Source: Candidatus Undinarchaeales archaeon (GTDB taxonomy: Archaea; SpSt-1190; JASMDC01). Taken from it: 17,384 nucleotides of DNA. The translations under genes were made by a program, and so were the position numbers. The stretch is taken from contig JASMDC010000053.1 in the NCBI GenBank assembly GCA_030753015.1, forward strand, positions 1 to 17,384, written 5' to 3'. The notes beneath the pieces were generated by a model. That model ran no database searches and was not told the DNA's origin. It worked only from the letters and a program-made list of their open reading frames with translations. Below, one piece after another: positions 224 through 17,314 of this stretch. Each line of letters begins with the position of its first letter. Positions within the stretch are counted from its first letter, which is position 1.

Positions 224-1501
224 ATGAGCACAAGACGTGCAAAACACCGAGAGATTTGTACTGGTGGCTATGAGCGAGAGCTCTGGCTGTCCTTTTATGC
301 TACCGCGTCCCGGGCCAAGCGTACCTTCAGCAGGGCATGGTGTAACTCGCTGGTCCGGTTCTCCCTCCTTACGCTGCTCGGCGCCCTTACCGGTGTGGCC
401 GCCCACCTCACCTTTGCACTGGGCGGCCCCGTGGCCTACATCCTCGAGAACACATGGGGCGTGGTCCCCATGACAGTGGGCTACCTAGTATCCCCGTTCG
501 CGGGAGCCTGTGTCGGCGCCGCAAGCGCTCTCGCCGCCGGGATTGTCGCATTCGGCTGGTTCTTCGCCGTTCCCGGGATCGTTCCGTACATACTATCCGT
601 TATCGCGGTCCCCATGGCGACCGGTGCTCTAGTGGGCGCCCTGCCGGCAATGCTCGCTCCGCGGGTCGAATCCTCCCGCCTGCTCGCCACGCTGTTCGTG
701 TGCACCCTGTCGGTCCAGTTCGCCGGTGTAGCGCCCGCGCTGGTCGAGATAGATCTCCGTTCACCCGATGCGAGCGGGCTCGCCTCGCTCCCCCTCATCA
801 TCCTTTTTTGCTTCGGGGCGTACACCCTTGTAGCGGCACCGATCTTACGCCTCGTCGTCCTTGGTGACGGACGTGCGATTGGCCCTGCGGTCGCCGTGTT
901 CGTGGTCCTGCTCGTCGTGGCGGGCCCCCGGCTCGAACGCTCGGTTCAGAGCGATCCCGTGGACCCTCGCATATCTCACCCACGGATCATGGCGCTCGCG
1001 GACCGCCTGGCATCGTCCGACCTTCCTGACGAGGACCGCATCAGTGCCACGCTGGCGTACGTGCGTGACGACATCGGCCCGTACATCCGTCCGCCGAACA
1101 AGCTGGTGCTCCATCAACAGAGCGCTCTCCAGACCCTCGAAAGAGGCCGTGGGGACTGTGTGGACAAGGCGGTCCTGCTCGTCACCCTCCTCCGGCACGA
1201 GGGTTTCGTCGCCGAGCTCGATGAACAACCCGATCACGTCCGCGTGATGCTCTTTCGCGAGGACGGCGACCGGATCCTCGATCCGTCCCATGAAGAGCTC
1301 CTATGGTCCGATAATGATCACCTGGAGAGGCCCATAAGCACCCTGTTAATGCGTATAATTTACGGGATTGATCCCCGTTCAGTGATCCTGAGTGCGCTCG
1401 CCCTCTCACAGCTTATCGTCCTCTACGTCGTCTGGGCATATCCGGCGGTGGCACGCGACCTGATGATGGAGGCGTCCCTGCCCCGGTATAACGTCATGTA
1501 G
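224..1501 (+). CDS. Membrane protein with transglutaminase-like domain, copy 1
   Basis: First of three tandem paralogs. After about 45 mostly polar residues, roughly residues 46-245 form about six hydrophobic segments sharing a motif with its neighbours (VVP..VGY..SP..GA.VG). The part from about residue 255 is a transglutaminase-like/papain-fold domain with the triad visible: Cys312 in RGDCVD, His338 in PDHVRV and Asp353 in ILDPS. Transglutaminase-like domains in archaea act as proteases, deglycosylases or cross-linkers, and the substrate cannot be read here. Unlike copies 2 and 3 it ends with an extra hydrophobic segment (about residues 387-410), so both ends of the soluble domain would be tethered. 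ATG 224 is the only start after the upstream in-frame stop, but it lacks an obvious box at the usual spacing. The protein is 425 aa. The fold call is firm; the activity is unknown. Confidence 0.85.
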   Translation: MSTRRAKHREICTGGYERELWLSFYATASRAKRTFSRAWCNSLVRFSLLTLLGALTGVAAHLTFALGGPVAYILENTWGVVPMTVGYLVSPFAGACVGAASALAAGIVAFGWFFAVPGIVPYILSVIAVPMATGALVGALPAMLAPRVESSRLLATLFVCTLSVQFAGVAPALVEIDLRSPDASGLASLPLIILFCFGAYTLVAAPILRLVVLGDGRAIGPAVAVFVVLLVVAGPRLERSVQSDPVDPRISHPRIMALADRLASSDLPDEDRISATLAYVRDDIGPYIRPPNKLVLHQQSALQTLERGRGDCVDKAVLLVTLLRHEGFVAELDEQPDHVRVMLFREDGDRILDPSHEELLWSDNDHLERPISTLLMRIIYGIDPRSVILSALALSQLIVLYVVWAYPAVARDLMMEASLPRYNVM

Positions 1502-1526
1502 GTCCGCGTCAATGCCCGTCAAAACC

Positions 1527-1532
1527 TTTATA
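1527..1532 (+). promoter_or_regulatory. TATA box of transglutaminase-like copy 2
   Basis: The box TTTATA follows an A-rich stretch (CAAAAC) that could act as the BRE. Its centre lies 27-28 bases before GTG 1557. It sits inside the longer reading frame that begins at ATG 1512, which argues that 1512 is not the real start. The spacing from CAAAA to the GTG (37 bases) is identical in copy 3. Confidence 0.6.
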
Positions 1533-1556
1533 GACCTTCGGCGGGAGCACCGGGGC

Positions 1557-2663
1557 GTGGCCGAGGACAACAACGGCGAGGACCTCTCCGAGGAGGACTC
1601 CCGAACGGACACGGCGCCCGCGATCCTTGAGCGCTTGGAGGGAACGCGTGTCGGGGACTGGCTCCTCGCTTCCTGGGAGAATCCACGGGACCGGTGGCTG
1701 TTGCTAACGAGCCTTGGGCTCGTCTACGGAATCGTCGGTTATCTCCTTATCATGGGCGACTTCAACGTGTCCACCTTCCTCGTGTACGCCCTGGACGTAG
1801 TGCCCATCGTCGTCGGCTACAGGGTCTCGCCCGCCGCTGGCGCCTGGGTCGGAGTAATTGGTTCGCTCGCTACGGGCATCATTCTGCTCCTGAACCTTTG
1901 GGGATTCCGAGGTTTCCAATACTATCTCATCCCCGTGATCCTGGTGGCCATGATGGCCGGCGCTTTTCTGGGAGCCCTTCCCGCACGTCTTGCACCGGAG
2001 ATGGACCGCCGCCGCCTGCTCCTCGTGCTCCTTGGATGCGCCGGCGTTGTCGGCTTCACCGACGTCACTCCCGTGATCGCGGCCTGGATAATGGGCCGCG
2101 CCCATATAGTCAACCTCTGGATCTGGCCCGTGATGACGATAATGTGCTTCACAATATACGTTCTCGTCGTGGTGCCCCTTGTCAGAGTGTTTGTTCGTGG
2201 CGAAAGGAACGGATTGAGACTGGCACTGGTCTCGATCATCGCCATTATTCTCGTTGGTCTCATCCCATATGATACGCCCTCGACGGTGATGCCTGAACGG
2301 TTCGAGCCCTACATCAAATCCGACCATTCCGCGGTGATCCGGCTATCCAGCGAGATCGCACGACCGTCACTGACCGATCAGGAGCGCATCAACACCACCT
2401 ACCGGTTCGTACGCGACAACATTACCTACATAGACGATCCGCCCATTATAGGGGATTACCTCCAGCCGCCCGAGGAGACGATAGAGCGCGGTTACGGCGA
2501 CTGCGAGGACGTGTCCATCCTCTTGGTCTCCCTCCTTCGGAACCAAGGCTTCAATGCCTCGGTGGACGTCATCCCTGGCCACGCCCGTGTGGAGTTGGCG
2601 TGGAACGGCTCCATCCACCTGCTCGATGCGACGAGCATCGATGAGTTCCAGGTCGGCGGCTAG
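1557..2663 (+). CDS. Membrane protein with transglutaminase-like domain, copy 2
   Basis: Second paralog, 368 aa from GTG 1557. An acidic N terminus of about 45 residues precedes about six hydrophobic segments (roughly 45-245). A transglutaminase-like domain follows with Cys316 (GYGDCED), His342 (PGHARV) and Asp357 (LLDATS). It lacks the C-terminal hydrophobic segment of copy 1 and stops shortly after the Asp. I chose GTG 1557 rather than ATG 1512, 15 codons upstream, because a TATA box sits 27 bases before it, as expected for leaderless transcription, and copy 3 has the same arrangement. It starts 55 bases after copy 1 ends but appears to have its own promoter. The hydrophobic part resembles the small-molecule-binding S-components of ECF transporters in length and small-residue pattern; that is inference only. 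Confidence 0.85.
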   Translation: MAEDNNGEDLSEEDSRTDTAPAILERLEGTRVGDWLLASWENPRDRWLLLTSLGLVYGIVGYLLIMGDFNVSTFLVYALDVVPIVVGYRVSPAAGAWVGVIGSLATGIILLLNLWGFRGFQYYLIPVILVAMMAGAFLGALPARLAPEMDRRRLLLVLLGCAGVVGFTDVTPVIAAWIMGRAHIVNLWIWPVMTIMCFTIYVLVVVPLVRVFVRGERNGLRLALVSIIAIILVGLIPYDTPSTVMPERFEPYIKSDHSAVIRLSSEIARPSLTDQERINTTYRFVRDNITYIDDPPIIGDYLQPPEETIERGYGDCEDVSILLVSLLRNQGFNASVDVIPGHARVELAWNGSIHLLDATSIDEFQVGG

Positions 2664-2747
2664 GGCCAGGCTCACCTGCCGAGCCAAGAGAGGGGCTCCG
2701 GACCAAATGTAGGATTTGTACGTGGTCAGAACCCATCCGTCAAAAGC

Positions 2748-2753
2748 TATTTA
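2748..2753 (+). promoter_or_regulatory. TATA box of transglutaminase-like copy 3
   Basis: TATTTA preceded by CAAAAG. Its centre is 27 bases before GTG 2778, matching the layout before copy 2. The intergenic stretch 2664-2777 otherwise shows nothing recognisable. Confidence 0.55.
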
Positions 2754-2777
2754 GCCAATGGGAAACCCTCACGTCCC

Positions 2778-3851
2778 GTGGAGGACGGAGCGCGTGAAAC
2801 TGCTGGTGCGTCGGAGGAACGGCGCACGTCCTCTGGCGCTCTCTCCATCGGAAAGATGCTGGACCACCCACCTACACGCATACTGTTCCTCAGCTTGCTG
2901 GGTGTGGTGTACGGCTACACATCCTTCCTCACCCTCACCTGGAGTTCGTCAATCGCATCGCTCCTGGTCTACGTCTGGGACGTCGTGCCCGTGGTGGCAG
3001 GATACAGATTCTCCCCCGCGAGCGGTGCATTGGTGGGGATCATGGGCTCCTTCACCACCTGGTGGGCCATGTTCCATGAACCTGTCTGGTTCCAGCTGGC
3101 GATCCCCAACGTAATCCCGATCCTCGCCGTTACACTTGTCACCGGGGCGATGCTGGGAGCGCTCCCTTCGAGCTTTGCCCCCGGGCTCGAGCGGCGCCGC
3201 CTGTTCGTTGCTCTGCTCGCCTGCGCGGTGGCGGTGGGGTTCGCCGACGTAGCCCCCATAGCATTGAGCTGGGCCGTGGGCCGCACCCGCTTCATCTACC
3301 TGTGGCTATGGCCTGTAATGACTATGGTGTCCTTCAGCGTGTATGCCCTCGCTGTGATGCCTCTCACACGTTACCTCGTCCGCGGTGAGCCTCCGGGCCG
3401 GTTGCGATTGGTTCTTCTGGTGCTCGCGGCGGTCCTGGTAGGCCTCGTCCCCTTCGAGCCGGACCTCGGGCTGGACACCGATGACTTCACCGAGTACATA
3501 CGTCCTGACCATCCCGATGTGGTCGCGCTCGCCCGTCGGCTCGGCGACCCTTCCCTTCCCGATGAGGGGCGCATCAACGCCACCTTCTGTTTCGTACGCG
3601 ACAACATCACCTATCGGAGCGATCCGTTCATAGTGTACTACGACTACTTCCAACCACCCGAGGAGACCCTTGAGCGGGGGTATGGCGATTGTGACGACAG
3701 GGCGATCCTCCTCGTATCCCTCCTGAGGGCCGAGGGGTTCGAAGCAGAGGTGGACCTAATCCCAAACCACGCCCGGGCCAACCTTACATGGAACGGTTCT
3801 GTCCGTGTACTGGACCCGAGCAGTGACATCCAATTCATGTGCCCGCATTAA
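2778..3851 (+). CDS. Membrane protein with transglutaminase-like domain, copy 3
   Basis: Third paralog, 357 aa from GTG 2778. It has a short polar N terminus (about 30 residues), about six hydrophobic segments to about residue 230, then the transglutaminase-like domain with Cys305 (GYGDCDD), His331 (PNHARA) and Asp346 (VLDPSS). Copies 2 and 3 are clearly closer to each other than to copy 1: both share the DVVP..GYR.SPA.GA motif and the stretches FVRDNITY and QPPEETLERGYGDC or close variants. The GTG start is set by a TATA box 27 bases upstream; a nearby ATG at 2758 is in another frame. The last four bases overlap the end of the convergent gene on the other strand. The soluble domain probably faces outside, inferred from topology and not shown directly. 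Confidence 0.85.
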   Translation: MEDGARETAGASEERRTSSGALSIGKMLDHPPTRILFLSLLGVVYGYTSFLTLTWSSSIASLLVYVWDVVPVVAGYRFSPASGALVGIMGSFTTWWAMFHEPVWFQLAIPNVIPILAVTLVTGAMLGALPSSFAPGLERRRLFVALLACAVAVGFADVAPIALSWAVGRTRFIYLWLWPVMTMVSFSVYALAVMPLTRYLVRGEPPGRLRLVLLVLAAVLVGLVPFEPDLGLDTDDFTEYIRPDHPDVVALARRLGDPSLPDEGRINATFCFVRDNITYRSDPFIVYYDYFQPPEETLERGYGDCDDRAILLVSLLRAEGFEAEVDLIPNHARANLTWNGSVRVLDPSSDIQFMCPH

Positions 3852-4333
3852 GGACTTTCGGGACGTCCTCTCTTGGTCTCCGGGCCCCCGTCATGTTTTC
3901 CGAGGGCAAGGAACGGACCGGGGTCACCAGGGCTGATCACCAGCGTCCGTGGCCATCCCTCTCGCCGACGGACCACGATGCGGCCTGCGAGGCGTGTGGA
4001 CAGGTAGAGCGTGCCGTGGCGATAGGCGCGCACGTAGGAGGGCAGGTCGCCGAGGCCCTTCTCCACCGAATCTATGTCGTCGGCGGGCACTCGCAGACGC
4101 AGGGGGCCGTACCACACCACCAGGTCCCCCGCTTCGTCGATGACATAGCGGACGAAGATGGTTGAGAGGAAGAGGACGATGATGGGGACCCACAGGAGAA
4201 ATATGAGGGGTGTGAACAGGGGCGGGAGGAACGTCCGGGCCTGCCACAGGAAGGTCGTGATGTAGGTGCAGGCCAGCACATAGGCCACCGAGGCGGTGAC
4301 GAACCGCCGGTCGATGGGGGGGCTATCGATCAC
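3848..4333 (-). CDS. Small membrane protein with bacterial-type PH-like domain
   Basis: Predicted 161 aa. Two hydrophobic segments (about residues 11-30 and 38-59) are followed by an all-beta domain (about 62-145). Its pattern (YVIDEAGDLVVWYGPLR, then ADDIDSVE, then LVISPGDPGPFL) fits the bacterial PH-like families found in small membrane proteins. Such domains usually mediate protein or envelope interactions; the partner is unknown. GTG 4333 is chosen because it overlaps the TAG stop of trmJ (4323-4325) and the trmJ frame is intact to that point. A longer open frame running up to 4678 is only trmJ read out of frame. The overlap suggests translational coupling with trmJ. The C-terminal tail (about 146-161) is charged and probably disordered. 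Confidence 0.7.
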   Translation of the reverse strand: MIDSPPIDRRFVTASVAYVLACTYITTFLWQARTFLPPLFTPLIFLLWVPIIVLFLSTIFVRYVIDEAGDLVVWYGPLRLRVPADDIDSVEKGLGDLPSYVRAYRHGTLYLSTRLAGRIVVRRREGWPRTLVISPGDPGPFLALGKHDGGPETKRGRPESP

Positions 4334-6122: not shown

Positions 6123-6809
6123 ATGAAGGTACATATCGAGGGGAAGCTGGCGCCCATGGCCCAGATCGACCTCGATACCGGCGAGCGCATCTACGCCCAG
6201 GCCGGCAGCCTGATGTTCAAGACCGGGTCCGTCGATATGGAGCCCACGGGCCGGGGCGAGGGTGCCAGCGGTATCTTCAAGCGCCTGATCACCTCAGAGA
6301 CCGTGCTCTTCCTCGAGTTCAAGGGTCCGGGGACCGTGGGGCTGTCCCCCTTCTTCCCCGGCGAGATCAAGGAGGTCGTGCTCAGTGAGGGCGAGTCAAT
6401 CCACGTCAACCGGGGCGCGTTCCTCTTCGCCGAGCGCTCGGTGCGGTACGACGTCGACTGGGTGAGCCGCGGGTGGTGGCAGCGCGCCAAGATGGGCCTA
6501 CTGGGCGGCGAAGGGTTCTTCTTCCAGAAGCTCACCGGGCCGGGCCGCGCCTACCTCTACGTGTGCGGCGACATCGTGGAGACCGAGCTCGCCGCGGGCC
6601 AGACCGTCCAGGTGGAGCAGGGCGCTCTGGTGTACAAGGACGTGGAGGTGGGGTACGAGCTCGAGCGCGTAAAGGGACTGGGGCGCATCATATTCTCCGG
6701 TGCGGGCCTGTTCCTCGTCACGCTTACCGGTCCCGGGAAGGTGGCCCTACAGACCATGGACCTCAACCAGTTCGTCGGCCGCATCGTCGCACCCATCATG
6801 CGCTCGTAG
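6123..6809 (+). CDS. AIM24 / TIGR00266 family protein
   Basis: 228 aa. The sequence matches the AIM24 family (formerly DUF124), a beta-rich fold spread across archaea, bacteria and mitochondria; no enzyme activity is established. Typical features visible are the N-terminal AQIDLDTGERIYAQAGSLMF (about residues 14-33), GPGTVGLSPFFPGEI (about 74-88), the repeated motif LTGPGRAYLYVCGDI (about 139-153) and LTGPGKVALQTM (about 205-216), which reflects the internal repeats of the fold. No signal peptide is seen. I chose ATG 6123 over the in-frame GTG 6105 because the box at 6092-6098 places transcription initiation on 6123. It is divergent from DUF371 and followed by two small membrane-protein genes. 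Confidence 0.88.
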   Translation: MKVHIEGKLAPMAQIDLDTGERIYAQAGSLMFKTGSVDMEPTGRGEGASGIFKRLITSETVLFLEFKGPGTVGLSPFFPGEIKEVVLSEGESIHVNRGAFLFAERSVRYDVDWVSRGWWQRAKMGLLGGEGFFFQKLTGPGRAYLYVCGDIVETELAAGQTVQVEQGALVYKDVEVGYELERVKGLGRIIFSGAGLFLVTLTGPGKVALQTMDLNQFVGRIVAPIMRS

Positions 6810-6863
6810 GGTTCGCTGCGAAAGGCTTTTCAATCATCACCTCACAGAGATTGACGAGCGCCC

Positions 6864-7058
6864 ATGACCGACCAGACCACCCAGCCCCTTCCCGAAACGA
6901 AGGGCGGGGGGATGAGCCTCCTCGACCTCATCGTCATCCTCATCGAGGTGGCGGGAGTCGCGGGGGTCGTGTACATCGCGATGTGGCTCATGGGCGACTG
7001 CTACTCCTACACCCTCGCGGGGTACAAGCTGAGCTGCTGCCCCATCTCGTGCGGGTGA
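6864..7058 (+). CDS. 64-aa Cys-rich single-pass membrane peptide
   Basis: A short gene of unknown function. About 18 polar residues precede one hydrophobic helix (about residues 19-43). A C-terminal tail of about 20 residues then holds four cysteines (Cys46, 58, 59 and 63) in the ending KLSCCPISCG. With the polar N terminus inside, the Cys-rich tail would lie outside the membrane and could bind metal or form disulfides; that is inference. A T-rich element (CTTTTC, about 6826-6831) lies about 36 bases before ATG 6864, compatible with a promoter and a leader of a few bases. An internal ATG at 6912 (residue 17) is an alternative start. It lies 54 bases after the AIM24 gene. Codon use matches the neighbouring GC-rich genes. 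Confidence 0.65.
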   Translation: MTDQTTQPLPETKGGGMSLLDLIVILIEVAGVAGVVYIAMWLMGDCYSYTLAGYKLSCCPISCG

Positions 7059-7099
7059 AACCGCGCTGTATGTGTGGGCCCTGATCCTCTTTTCGAAAC

Positions 7100-7127
7100 A
7101 TTTATTACTGCGCAGTGACTAATAATA
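7100..7127. repeat. Palindrome in A/T-rich intergenic region
   Basis: The perfect 10-base palindrome ACTGCGCAGT sits in an A/T-rich stretch, flanked by TTATT on the left and, after four extra bases, AATAA on the right. It lies within the promoter region of the 157-aa gene, between two TATA-like segments (TTTATTA near 7101 and AATAAATA near 7124). It is a candidate operator; a terminator role for the preceding gene is also possible because TCCTCTTTTC precedes it. Confidence 0.35.
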
Positions 7128-7191
7128 AATAGAAGAAAAACCGCGACGAGGAGTTGAGGGGTGGGCCCCCCGCCGCCATGGGGTGCCTACT

Positions 7192-7665
7192 ATGAACCAG
7201 AAAGGAACGATAAACCTGTCTGCCGAGGCCCTCGTCGCCATCGTTCTCGCGGTGGCCGCCCTGTCTTTCGGCATATACGCCATCGAGCGTGCGAAGCCCG
7301 GTGTGAAGCATACCAGGATTACTGGAATAAGTCGTTTTCAGGAGCTCGATCCGATAACGATGCTCAAGTGCGCGGACTGGCATGACGACGAGTATCCGGT
7401 CGACGTGGAAGCGCTGGAGATCTTGTACAAGTTCCCCACGCTCTTTGAGGGATCCAATGTCAAGGGATGTGAAAAGATTCCCGCGAAGATTCTCGCCGCG
7501 AAGGGAGAAGGTCGACTCATGCTCGGGATGTCGGACAGCGACGTCCTTGATTGCATGCGGTTCTGTGCGGACGTAGCCAAGGTTCGGGATGCATGTGCTT
7601 CTGAGCGAGATTCGCAGCTATGCCGGGCTGAATCGTTCGCACGGATGCAGAACCGCCCTGCGTAG
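7192..7665 (+). CDS. Secreted or membrane-anchored Cys-rich protein with pilin-like N terminus
   Basis: 157 aa from ATG 7192; an in-frame GTG at 7183 is an alternative. The N terminus, MNQKGTINLSAEALVAIVLA and a further hydrophobic run to about residue 31, resembles archaeal class III (type IV pilin-like) signals: a short basic segment ending in KG, then a long helix with a Glu. However, the Glu is at +7 rather than the usual +5, so processing by a prepilin peptidase is uncertain. An uncleaved anchor is the alternative. The rest is soluble with six cysteines (60, 93, 121, 125, 135, 144), the last four grouped as CMRFC, then C, then C, suggesting disulfides or a metal site. A possible ribosome site GAGGAG lies upstream at about 7148-7153. 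It ends three bases before the convergent pyrophosphorylase gene. No family recognised. Confidence 0.65.
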   Translation: MNQKGTINLSAEALVAIVLAVAALSFGIYAIERAKPGVKHTRITGISRFQELDPITMLKCADWHDDEYPVDVEALEILYKFPTLFEGSNVKGCEKIPAKILAAKGEGRLMLGMSDSDVLDCMRFCADVAKVRDACASERDSQLCRAESFARMQNRPA

Positions 7666-7668
7666 GCG

Positions 7669-8412
7669 TCAGGACTTCAGCAGGAACGACATCTCCGAAG
7701 TGACCATGTCGTCGGAGAGCTTCTCCAGCCGCTCGATGGAACCCACGTCGTACCAGAACTCGTCGGTGAGGTACCCGCGGATCTTCCCGCCCTCGTCGAT
7801 GAGCCGGGGGATGAGGTGTGCGTTGAGGTCCAGCACACCGTTCGGGTCCGTCCGCATACCGGCGAACGCCGCCGCACGCACGATGTAGATGCCTATGTTC
7901 ACGGGCATGTCGATCCGGGGCTTCTCTCGGAATCCGTGGACGGTGGCCAGCGGTCCGTCCGCGTCGGTGACGTCCGCCACGCCCACGGGGACGGGGAAAT
8001 CCCTTGCCAGGGCGAGGGTCACGTCGGCCTCCGCCTCTCGGTGGAGCGCCAACATCCGGCCCATGTCTATGTTCGAGAGTATGTCACCGTAGAATATCAC
8101 CACGTCCTCGTCCCCAGCGGCCGTCAGTGCGGGGAGGATGGCGTTACCCGTGCCCTTGAGGTCCGGTTGGTCGAGGTGGTAGGTCATGCGGGCCCCGAAC
8201 CGCGAGCCGTCCTCGAAGTAGTTCGTGATCTGCTCTGCGTGCGCTCCCACGAGCACGTTCACATCGCAGATGCCGTGGTGGCACAGGAGCCTGACGATGT
8301 ACTCCATCAGCGGTTTGCCCTGTCGTCCCAGGGGCATCATGCACTTCTGAAAGTAGAACGAGAGGGGCCGGAGCCGGGTGCCTTCGCCGCCGGCGAGCAC
8401 GATGGCCTTCAT
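7669..8412 (-). CDS. Sugar-nucleotide pyrophosphorylase (NTP transferase)
   Basis: 247 aa. An N-terminal nucleotidyltransferase of the glucose-1-phosphate thymidylyltransferase / mannose-1-phosphate guanylyltransferase superfamily, which couples a sugar phosphate to NTP to make an activated sugar for glycan synthesis. The signature MKAIVLAGGEGTRLRPLSFY is at the start, followed by KPLMEYIV. GTGNAI (about residues 92-97) and the metal-binding FYGDIL (about 107-112) follow, then REKP and VNIGIYIV. The protein ends after the catalytic domain; no beta-helix acyltransferase tail is present. Sugar and nucleotide specificity cannot be decided from sequence alone. ATG 8412 is supported by a minus-strand TATA box 24-31 bases upstream. 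The gene follows the beta-propeller gene in the same direction but with its own promoter. Confidence 0.88.
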   Translation of the reverse strand: MKAIVLAGGEGTRLRPLSFYFQKCMMPLGRQGKPLMEYIVRLLCHHGICDVNVLVGAHAEQITNYFEDGSRFGARMTYHLDQPDLKGTGNAILPALTAAGDEDVVIFYGDILSNIDMGRMLALHREAEADVTLALARDFPVPVGVADVTDADGPLATVHGFREKPRIDMPVNIGIYIVRAAAFAGMRTDPNGVLDLNAHLIPRLIDEGGKIRGYLTDEFWYDVGSIERLEKLSDDMVTSEMSFLLKS

Positions 8413-14919: not shown

Positions 14920-15180
14920 ATGCATCCGCCCCTGGAGGCCGACAAGGAGACCTGGGAGTTCGAGTGGAACCCCAAGCGACGCTTCGAGGAGTACTGCAAG
15001 CTCGTCGAGGCCTACAACGGCCTTCGCAAGCATAACAAGGTGCTAGAGGTCAAGTACGAGGAGATGAAGCAGCTCATGCTCGAGCTGCGGGACCAGGTCG
15101 ACCGGGGCACCAATGACCAGCAGAAGCTGTTCGACCGGCTCAACGCTATCAAGACCATCGCCACACCCAAGGACCTGTAG
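14920..15180 (+). CDS. Short coiled-coil protein
   Basis: 86 aa. After a polar N terminus with several Trp and Glu residues (LEADKETWEFEWNPKRRFEE), residues of about 24-76 form a probable coiled coil with heptad-like hydrophobics (LVEAYNGLRKHNKVLEVKYE, then MKQLMLELRDQVDRG). No cysteine pair, signal or membrane segment. The role is unknown; it could dimerise or pair with the zinc-ribbon protein encoded 14 bases upstream. The ribosome site in the gap supports ATG 14920. Confidence 0.7.
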   Translation: MHPPLEADKETWEFEWNPKRRFEEYCKLVEAYNGLRKHNKVLEVKYEEMKQLMLELRDQVDRGTNDQQKLFDRLNAIKTIATPKDL

Positions 15181-15309
15181 GGATCCGTGCGCGAGTTCCG
15201 CTACGCGGACTGGTCTGTTTGTATTGTATGGATGTACATATCGTAATGTGTCCTTTGGCCGAAACGACCCTATGAGAATTGAAAACGAATTGACGTTCAA
15301 GGTGCTACT

Positions 15310-16053
15310 ATGAGACCAGATCCAACAAGACTATTGGAAATAGCAGCTATAGAAAATCCACTTGTCGGGTTCTATGATGTGCCGGATCCCAAGCCTTTCG
15401 AGCCCTTTGTCAGACCTGAACGATGTTTCTTTTCCTACTACGAGAATTGGCAAAAGGGCGAAAGTATCTGCATATCTGAGAATGGATCGAGTTGCAGGGG
15501 GGGCGGGTACTGGATTGGCGGCGTTGAATTCAAAAACCGTGACAATTTCGCAAAGGATCTCAACGAAAGAGAAGGTTTCAAGTCCTCACAGGAACTGATG
15601 GAACAATGGCTCGATAATCAGAAACCTTACCGGATAGAGCATGGATACGTTGTGATAGGGCCTTTGAGAGATGAACAATACGACTTCCTGAAGACCGTTA
15701 CCTTTTTTGTCAATCCCGATCAGTTAAGCCTCTTGCTGCTGGGAACAGAATATCACAATGCATCCGTTGACATCCATCCAGCATTTACCGCTTTTGGGTC
15801 TGGTTGCGGACAGCTGGCGGCATTGTTCGAGAATCACGATCCCGATATCCCGAAGGCGATCATCGGCGCGACCGATATAGCTATGAGAGTGCATCTACCG
15901 CCTGACATTCTTGCCCTAACAGTGAACAAGCCTATGTATGGACAGCTCTGCGAACTAGATGAGGACAGCTTTCTCTATAAGTCATTTTGGAGAAGGCTCA
16001 GAAGAGCAAGAGGGGTGGCAATGAATGAAGCCCAATCCACCGACGGGAAATAG
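15310..16053 (+). CDS. DUF169 family protein
   Basis: 247 aa. It matches DUF169 (COG2043), a family of unknown function widespread in archaea and anaerobic bacteria. Seen here are LVGFYDVPDP (about 18-27), RPERCFFSYYENW (about 36-48, Cys39), the GESICISENGSSCRGGGYWI block (about 50-69, Cys54, Cys62), a central IGPLRDEQYDFLKTVTFFVN, and a C-terminal region with GSGCGQL and GATDIAMRVHLPPDILALTV. The conserved cysteines fit a metal or cofactor site, not proven. An AGGTG ribosome site at 15299-15303 supports ATG 15310. Codon use (AGA, ATA, CTA, AAA) is clearly more A/T-rich than in genes before 15.2 kb, so this gene may come from another genome or region. Confidence 0.85.
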   Translation: MRPDPTRLLEIAAIENPLVGFYDVPDPKPFEPFVRPERCFFSYYENWQKGESICISENGSSCRGGGYWIGGVEFKNRDNFAKDLNEREGFKSSQELMEQWLDNQKPYRIEHGYVVIGPLRDEQYDFLKTVTFFVNPDQLSLLLLGTEYHNASVDIHPAFTAFGSGCGQLAALFENHDPDIPKAIIGATDIAMRVHLPPDILALTVNKPMYGQLCELDEDSFLYKSFWRRLRRARGVAMNEAQSTDGK

Positions 16054-16104
16054 TCGAGGATCGTCTTTGGGCAGGCCGGTCAAGTAAGGCCGCAGACCTG
16101 ATAG

Positions 16105-16137
16105 AACACTCATTTCTCCAAATCCAGAGTGTTTTTT
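16105..16137 (+). terminator. Intrinsic-type terminator after the DUF169 gene
   Basis: A 7-base inverted repeat AACACTC/GAGTGTT (16105-16111 with 16127-16133) with a 15-base loop runs into six consecutive T (16132-16137), about 50 bases after the DUF169 stop. Stem and T run are the standard layout. Confidence 0.5.
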
Positions 16138-16261
16138 CAATGACAGATGTGTGCGGTCATTACGCTCGATTCTGGGGCTCATTTTATCACTTCAAGAGGA
16201 TATACCAACTATCAGAGTAGGTGATCAATTGTTCTCAGGATTAATTCTATCAGGATTCACG

Positions 16262-16381
16262 ATGCCGATCAAGATGCCAAAACGCGCCCGTTGCAGGAAA
16301 TGCGGCAAGGTCGTTTCCACACCGGATTTGATCAATGGTATGTGCCCGAAATGTGCAGGCGAACAGAGTAAAGGAGCATAG
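16262..16381 (+). CDS. Tiny zinc-ribbon protein
   Basis: 39 aa from ATG 16262, or 35 aa from ATG 16274. Two CxxC pairs, CRKC and CPKC, separated by 16 residues (GKVVSTPDLINGM within), make a single zinc ribbon with a basic start (MPKRARCRKCGKVV). Such mini zinc ribbons are common in archaea and usually unassigned. An AGGA ribosome site ends about six bases before 16262; an A/T-rich element near 16241-16250 instead fits leaderless initiation at 16274. The longer frame beginning at 16151 has no promoter or ribosome site that I can see and its first 37 residues are not zinc-ribbon-like. Composition is A/T-richer than the left part of the window. Confidence 0.6.
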   Translation: MPIKMPKRARCRKCGKVVSTPDLINGMCPKCAGEQSKGA

Positions 16382-16915
16382 CTCCTGTCTATTCTGCTCC
16401 ATTCCGGTATAGAAGGTAAGTGCCCCGCACATCCAAGGACCATCGGCAACGGTCGAGGATCTACCCTTCATTCTTACTAGCTACTACTCAAGAGATCACG
16501 TTCGGATGATCTGCGGTCCTGTTGAACTGTCGCCGATGTCCGATAACGACCCATGCATCCATAATGGATGTCATCATCTGTATAATGGTGTCAGGCCTTT
16601 GTCAGGTCCCGGTACGGGCGGGCAATTGCGTTCATGGAATTGTCGAGGAGCAATGAAGTCAAATCGATCCACAGGTCATCAGTGTGTTCTCATTCCGATC
16701 TTCACGATGATCGAAAGAAGGGCGAGCTTCATTCTTTTATGGAAAATTCAGGGATCCGTTTACAAGTTATGCGAATATGCTTGATTTTCATACGTCTTCT
16801 TCGGATTCCTCTCAGTATCCTTTATTCTTTTTCAGTCCTCCAACCGTATTTCAGGTCGGGCTTCCAGGCTTATACTTAAAAAAATCAGACTTCAAGTAGG
16901 GTCCTGGGGATTCAA
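16382..16915. other. About 530 bases without a convincing gene
   Basis: Open frames here (for example plus-strand frames starting at 16506 and 16634) overlap one another, have mixed composition and no recognisable motif, promoter or ribosome site. Short dyads are visible: CATCCAT-A-ATGGATG (16556-16570) and CAATT/AATTG near 16622-16642. The stretch is long for a genome that otherwise packs genes with gaps under about 200 bases. It may be a decayed gene, an unrecognised RNA gene, or regulatory DNA for the CBS gene. Near its right end TATACTTAAAAAAA (16871-16884) could be the CBS promoter. Confidence 0.4.
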
Positions 16916-17314
16916 ATGTTCGACAAACAGGTAAAGGATGTAATGTCCAAGGAGATTCTATCAGCGAGACTCAAATCAACTCTCAAAGAGATATCGGCGA
17001 TATTGATCAAACACAAGATAAGTGCAGTCCTAATCCGGGATGAGAGCGGCAATCCGTGGGGCGTGATCACCACGAGGGACATTGTGGGCTCCATGACAAA
17101 GCCCAATTTCAACGACCTGACCGCAGAGGATGTAATGACACGCAATCTCGTTACGATAAAACCCGCATCGACCTTGCTTAGAGCGGCCAAGAAAATGATG
17201 GAAGAAAGAGTGCAGAGGTTGATCGTTGCCCACCCTAGCCATCTCAAGGGGCAGCTCAGGATCGTCGGGATAATATCCATGTCAGATTTGGTAAAGACGA
17301 TATCCGAGGGTTGA
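16916..17314 (+). CDS. Two-CBS-domain protein
   Basis: 132 aa, consisting almost entirely of a tandem pair of CBS domains: CBS1 at about residues 7-60 (VKDVMSKEILSARLKSTLKE, ending with GVITTRDIVGSM) and CBS2 at about 69-128 (AEDVMTRNLVTIKPASTLLR, ending with VGIISMSDLVKTI). Such pairs form a Bateman module that binds adenine nucleotides or related ligands and regulates a partner. No effector domain is fused, so the partner must be a separate protein. A GGGGA element five bases before ATG 16916 is a possible ribosome site. The A/T-rich stretch at 16871-16884 is a possible promoter with a leader of about 9 bases. Confidence 0.88.
   Translation: MFDKQVKDVMSKEILSARLKSTLKEISAILIKHKISAVLIRDESGNPWGVITTRDIVGSMTKPNFNDLTAEDVMTRNLVTIKPASTLLRAAKKMMEERVQRLIVAHPSHLKGQLRIVGIISMSDLVKTISEG

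Follow-up and report, generated by a model that had tools for sequence, protein, structure and literature searches.

Three tandem archaeal genes joining a polytopic membrane domain, possibly related to S-components in its first helices, to a transglutaminase-fold enzyme domain

What might an archaeon gain from three tandem genes that each join a multi-helix membrane domain to a transglutaminase (TG)-fold enzyme domain, and to what is that membrane domain related? The question is raised by a Candidatus Undinarchaeales archaeon (3.85-Mb assembly GCA_030753015.1), in which the first 17,384 bases of the 20,767-base contig JASMDC010000053.1 (hereafter, the window) hold three consecutive open reading frames (ORFs; copies 1, 2, and 3, Table 1), each encoding an N-terminal polytopic hydrophobic domain followed by a C-terminal Transglut_core domain. 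Three tandem fusions had been proposed in a sequence-only reading of this DNA, and their coordinates and domain order were borne out by the ORFs and by PF01841 matches in all three. With moderate confidence, we favor the explanation that they are surface cysteine hydrolases or transamidases carried on a 6+1-helix membrane platform, whose first three transmembrane helices (TM1-TM3) are related to the S-components of energy-coupling factor (ECF) transporters, and that they are not themselves ECF importers.

The enzyme domain was recognized in every copy, with 29.7, 34.2, and 32.1 bits for copies 1, 2, and 3 against a PF01841 cut-off of 23 bits, and copy 2 also passed the cut-off of DUF553/PF04473, a transglutaminase-like family. 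A Cys-His-Asp triad, which the sequence-only reading had described as intact, is invariant in the alignment of all three copies. The modeled TG domain of copy 3, with a predicted local distance difference test (pLDDT) score mostly of 75-85, matched papain-fold structures including LapG (Z 11.3) and TglA (Z 10.9), and because these and other papain-fold matches are tied, the modeled fold alone cannot choose among a peptidase, an amidase, and a transglutaminase reaction. The predicted enzyme, whose catalytic activity and substrates are putative, should act via a thioester, either hydrolyzing envelope proteins as a peptidase or amidase or modifying them as a transamidase.

The placement of this enzyme depends on the helices ahead of it. 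Averaged hydropathy maxima fall in copy 3 at residues 35-53, 57-75, 81-99, 112-130, 142-160, 179-197, and 209-227, with a weaker peak (69-87) lying between helices 2 and 3, and the structure models position the helices as hydropathy does; both give about seven (six and then one more that connects to the enzyme), so that the six-helix count first put forward had to be revised. The loops after helices 4 and 6 are rich in Arg, those after helices 1 and 3 are nearly uncharged, and the linker ahead of the enzyme is acidic in copy 3, a positive-inside pattern by which a topology of cytoplasmic N-terminus, seven helices, and enzyme outside is supported but not proven. N-x-S/T sequons were found in the enzyme domains of copies 2 and 3 (four each) and not in that of copy 1, and a cytosolic enzyme, which we also considered, is disfavored by the charge pattern and the sequons. 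Given this topology and the sequons, the location of the enzyme plausibly suits the “envelope system” that the sequence-only reading had suggested. Two further features claimed there were confirmed, i.e., a VVP...GY..SP..GA.VG motif invariant in all three copies, and a C-terminal anchor that hydropathy assigns to copy 1 and to neither of the other copies.

The membrane domain matches no Pfam or NCBIfam family, and its possible relation to S-components was weighed by profile comparison, using a profile of the three copies' membrane domains as query against 31 archaeal S-component sequences collected with PF12822. The two profiles aligned in register over TM1-TM3 (query 13-77 to S-component profile 7-69; score 32.3, P = 1.9e-4, probability 48%). 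Controls comprised 106 membrane segments (34 from other archaea and 72 from the same genome), 200 block shuffles, and the reversed profile. The three-copy profile outscored every shuffle and 105 of the 106 segments, beaten only by a segment that is a true S-component: segments from other archaea scored at most 20.4, apart from one S-component-like segment at 124.8, while the maximum was 22.7 for own-genome segments and 22.0 for shuffles, and the reversed profile reached 16.7. Single copies scored 25.6, 23.7, and 21.1, and the N-terminal half (TM1-TM3) alone gave P = 3.4e-5, with 0 of 60 shuffles as good. An earlier profile of 12 S-component sequences had yielded only P = 0.026, with controls partly selected by the same family, and was replaced by the 31-sequence profile. 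The S-component fold recurs in MreD and in 5TMR sensor kinases (Partipilo and Slotboom 2024, PMC11109136), and when the three-copy profile was compared with 30 archaeal 5TMR domains, TM2-TM3 again aligned in register (query 34-71 to 5TMR profile 33-70; P = 0.0044); the positive control, S-components against 5TMR, gave P = 5e-8. On these sequence comparisons, the view that TM1-TM3 are distantly related to the S-component fold is supported but not proven.

Several results weigh against this relationship or against the topology built on it. First, TM4-TM7 showed no detectable similarity to the S-component profile, and random half-sets of the S-components gave P values from 3e-5 to 0.01, always including the TM2-TM3 segment. 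Second, Pfam matches to the membrane domain up to E 10 were DUF2070 (0.05), Herpes_US9 (0.21), and ECF_trnsprt (1.6), each in one copy, and a whole-genome PF12822 search omitted the three genes at E 0.1, placing them below the family cut-off; other membrane families were compared by this Pfam scan only. Third, the 5TMR match is weak, since three control segments (one a true S-component) outscored every single copy against that profile, no copy had a Pfam match to 5TMR-LYT PF07694, and the NXR motif of 5TMR between helices 1 and 2 is not present, with YVW, YAL, and NTW at the aligned positions. Fourth, confidence in the AlphaFold models was low, with mean pLDDT values of 55.6 (whole protein) and 57.8 (membrane part modeled alone). 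They did match S-components (Z 7.5 to 5edl over model residues 29-169; Z 5.8 to 3p5n), with unrelated helical folds scoring alike; a first Foldseek search with a low-confidence model placed the PanT S-component at rank 20 (E 0.61), and other helical proteins headed the list for the membrane-only model. Finally, the topology is drawn from hydropathy and charge only. Hence, of the S-component likeness that the sequence-only reading had seen in the whole domain, the part in TM1-TM3 stands through the profile match and its controls, while a whole-domain S-component fold is only a possibility, and the structure comparison it had proposed ends in a tie with unrelated folds.

Some of these results fit an alternative that we consider possible, if somewhat doubtful, in which the cell is served by a multi-helix anchor peculiar to this lineage and of no kinship with S-components, the TM1-TM3 likeness is convergence between small-residue-rich helices, and the proteins are TgpA-like surface peptidases or transglutaminases. 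The silence of TM4-TM7, the weak models of the membrane part, and the missing Pfam or NCBIfam family all agree with such an anchor, and TgpA itself is a polytopic TG enzyme with another membrane part (PMC3507681). Convergence is, however, harder to reconcile with an N-terminal half that matches in register, scoring above shuffles and above composition-matched controls from its own genome, and with the related 5TMR profile selecting the same segment.

Under the explanation that we favor, a repurposed S-component-type platform, each gene would yield a cysteine enzyme of the transglutaminase/papain superfamily that is held at the cell surface by its membrane part, with a cytoplasmic N-terminus and, after the first six helices, a seventh that connects to the enzyme on the outer face; the chain of copy 1 would re-enter the membrane by one more helix after the enzyme. 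Because the first three helices appear to be a divergent S-component relative, the membrane part would probably be such a platform, which would position, and possibly regulate, the enzyme rather than serve as an ECF importer. A bolder version, which we think unlikely, would make the protein an S-component-fold “transceptor enzyme”, in which the ligand-binding state controls the outer-face cysteine hydrolase or transamidase via the seventh helix; the output would then face outward, in a fold otherwise described with transport or with signaling into the cytosol.

Could the membrane domain nevertheless be a working transporter part? A helix-1 AXXXA motif docks S-components to EcfT and is missing from 5TMR and MreD (PMC11109136). 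At the two AXXXA columns, where 94% and 90% of residues in the profile are small, the copies have S/T/T and V/L/A (alignment read by eye), and an invariant GxxxG follows three residues further along TM1; a misalignment of three residues is possible. The genome has one clear EcfT, located in a CbiM/Q/O operon (CbiM and CbiO genes judged from sequence), and no ECF gene was found among the window ORFs scanned. An import role is unlikely, because AXXXA is not at the aligned positions, the sole clear EcfT sits in that operon, and the scanned window ORFs hold no ECF gene; any substrate-binding or transport role of the membrane domain is speculative. We accordingly give very little credence to a true S-component that binds a small nutrient, which the fused surface enzyme would free from peptides or conjugates, and works with an ECF module to import it: it would account for the S-component-like TM1-TM3, could draw on the genome's one EcfT, and would fit with the nearby GxxxG, but, beyond the obstacles just listed, its seventh helix and surface domain would have to move along during toppling. 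The CbiM/Q/O genes are immediately followed (at 6278-7858 of that locus) by one encoding a membrane protein that has a His-rich loop and by eye resembles NiCoT/RcnA-type metal transporters. Least credible of all is membership in the TgpA family (DUF3488, TG, and C-terminal helix), since, despite the same part order and even a C-terminal helix in copy 1, no copy matches PF11992 at E 10 and the TG domain comes right after the last helix, where the large region of TgpA (aa 180-544) is not found (PMC3507681).

The sequence-only reading had also pointed to parallel promoters with identical spacing ahead of copies 2 and 3, and this held. In archaea, a B recognition element (BRE) and TATA box take the form of CAAAA plus an A/T-rich octamer. 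Elements of this kind before copies 2 and 3 are identical at 16 of 22 bases and both lie exactly 37 nt upstream of a GTG codon, an agreement reached by none of 20,000 random pairs drawn from the window, and no comparable element was seen upstream of copy 1. The spacing fits nearly leaderless transcripts, and copies 2 and 3 most likely carry their own promoters. Copy 2 probably starts at GTG 1557 rather than at ATG 1512, because the latter would place the promoter element within the coding region.

Table 1 Positions of the three fusion genes and their features in the window
Feature	Position	Strand	Basis
Copy 1, 425 aa: membrane domain, transglutaminase-fold domain, C-terminal transmembrane helix	224..1501	+	ORF, Pfam, alignment, hydropathy
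Copy 1 membrane domain, about residues 46-237	359..934	+	hydropathy and alignment
Copy 1 transglutaminase-fold domain; C312 (1157-1159), H338 (1235-1237), D353 (1280-1282)	962..1294	+	PF01841 E 8.2e-7
Copy 1 C-terminal transmembrane helix, residues 387-405	1382..1438	+	hydropathy
Copy 2: longest ORF from ATG 1512 (383 aa); probable start GTG 1557 (368 aa)	1512..2663	+	ORF, Pfam, promoter position
BRE/TATA-like element of copy 2, CCGTCAAAACCTTTATAGACCT; CAAAA at 1520, 37 nt before GTG 1557	1516..1537	+	
Copy 2 membrane domain and linker, as aligned	1680..2306	+	alignment, hydropathy
Copy 2 transglutaminase-fold domain; C331 (2502-2504), H357 (2580-2582), D372 (2625-2627)	2310..2639	+	PF01841 E 3.4e-8, PF04473 E 1.3e-4
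BRE/TATA-like element of copy 3, CCGTCAAAAGCTATTTAGCCAA; CAAAA at 2741, 37 nt before GTG 2778	2737..2758	+	
Copy 3, 357 aa, GTG start	2778..3851	+	ORF, Pfam
Copy 3 membrane domain, about seven helices; S-component-like signal in TM1-TM3	2880..3458	+	hydropathy, models, profile comparison
VVP...GY..SP..GA.VG motif (TM2-loop-TM3 in copy 3)	copy 3 2982..3038; copy 2 1797-1853; copy 1 461-517	+	alignment
Copy 3 transglutaminase-fold domain; C305 (3690-3692), H331 (3768-3770), D346 (3813-3815)	3495..3827	+	PF01841 E 1.5e-7

Copies 2 and 3 are 48% identical, whereas copy 1 shares 32-36% with either; by these identities copy 1 would have been the first to diverge, if rates were equal, and the triplet is most likely an old lineage-specific expansion. 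The search for the membrane domain, which spanned about 1,185 archaeal genomes, met it in no genome but its own, so that looking for the same fusion in other archaea, as the sequence-only reading had suggested, recovered none. Its profile gave no convincing match in its own phylum (9 other genomes) or in four other phyla (23, 371, 389, and 392 genomes), the one fragment at E 9.8e-4 containing two stops, and no multi-helix N-terminal domain of this kind occurred among the TG-domain proteins of its own genome and 60 others. Scans of genome contigs for full-length relatives with copy 3 or the three-copy alignment returned nothing or bacterial TG domains only, and viral contigs, plasmids, and phages gave TG-domain matches only, or none; these negatives are limited by large collections having been scanned by short peptide patterns only. 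A membrane part joined to a transglutaminase domain is already known from TgpA; the pairing of this membrane domain with the enzyme was seen in no other genome searched. Elsewhere in the genome, two nearby TG-fold proteins (contig C41, 31811 and 39462) have DxDxDG repeats of calcium-binding type and, with these thrombospondin type 3-like repeats, are likely surface proteins. Another unusual TG architecture (contig C25, 33206) comprises, in 749 aa, a TG domain, a Cys-rich stretch, a C-terminal helix, and a zinc-ribbon-like tail.

If the S-component relationship were confirmed, an outward-facing enzyme would be added to a fold of vitamin transport, cytosolic signaling, and cell-shape proteins (PMC11109136, the main text of which mentions neither transglutaminase nor protease domains). 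Archaea would also gain a polytopic enzyme comparable to TgpA, a protein important to the viability of Pseudomonas (PMC3507681). Three copies with intact triads, two of them with separate promoters, suggest surface-processing enzymes important to the organism.

The genome is estimated as 98.9% complete with 5% contamination, and an archaeal origin of the contig is supported by a TrmJ 43% identical to its closest match among the archaeal genomes searched, together with DUF371 and DUF169 genes. At 3.85 Mb, the genome is about four to six times the size of the nine others compared in its phylum (0.6-1.1 Mb). GC content drops from ~63% to 46-49% at window positions 15001-17000, possibly a region of other origin, in which genes continue (a DUF169 protein and a CBS-domain protein), and a run of N (scaffold gap) lies just past the window end, at about 3390-3430 in the numbering of its own locus, giving XXXX in translations. 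Convergent with copy 3, a small membrane protein is encoded on the minus strand (3848-4324) and may include a PH-like domain (PF06713 matched the longer ORF at E 0.025, below cut-off). An anti-phage defense role was considered and set aside, with no PADLOC match at E 0.01.

How, then, does the triplet compare with described systems? LapG-type periplasmic cysteine proteases provide the best fold match and a weak NCBIfam LapG match to copies 2 and 3, but that score is far under the family cut-off, other papain-fold enzymes lie within 1 Z unit, and no LapD or adhesin partner was seen in the window. Archaeal transglutaminase-like proteins (PF01841, DUF553/PF04473) share the catalytic domain, whereas most others compared have at most a single N-terminal helix and a few have one to three hydrophobic stretches elsewhere. 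S-component-fold proteins (PF12822, 5TMR-LYT PF07694, and MreD) resemble the triplet in the TM1-TM3 profile in register (more weakly for 5TMR), in a length of ~190 residues, and in a predicted cytoplasmic N-terminus, while the triplet differs in an unrecognizable TM4-TM6, a seventh helix, and the lack of AXXXA and NXR; 5TMR outputs are, moreover, cytosolic, whereas the triplet's enzyme is predicted outside. The nearest described layout, judged by analogy, is that of TgpA (PA2873) of Pseudomonas aeruginosa, which combines DUF3488/PF11992 with PF01841 and places its TG domain at 396-467 within the large region (PMC3507681). The triplet is shorter, has a different membrane domain with no PF11992 match or intervening region, and stops after the TG domain in copies 2 and 3; like TgpA, it couples a polytopic N-terminal membrane part to a TG-fold domain predicted to be extracytoplasmic, and copy 1 shares the C-terminal helix as well.

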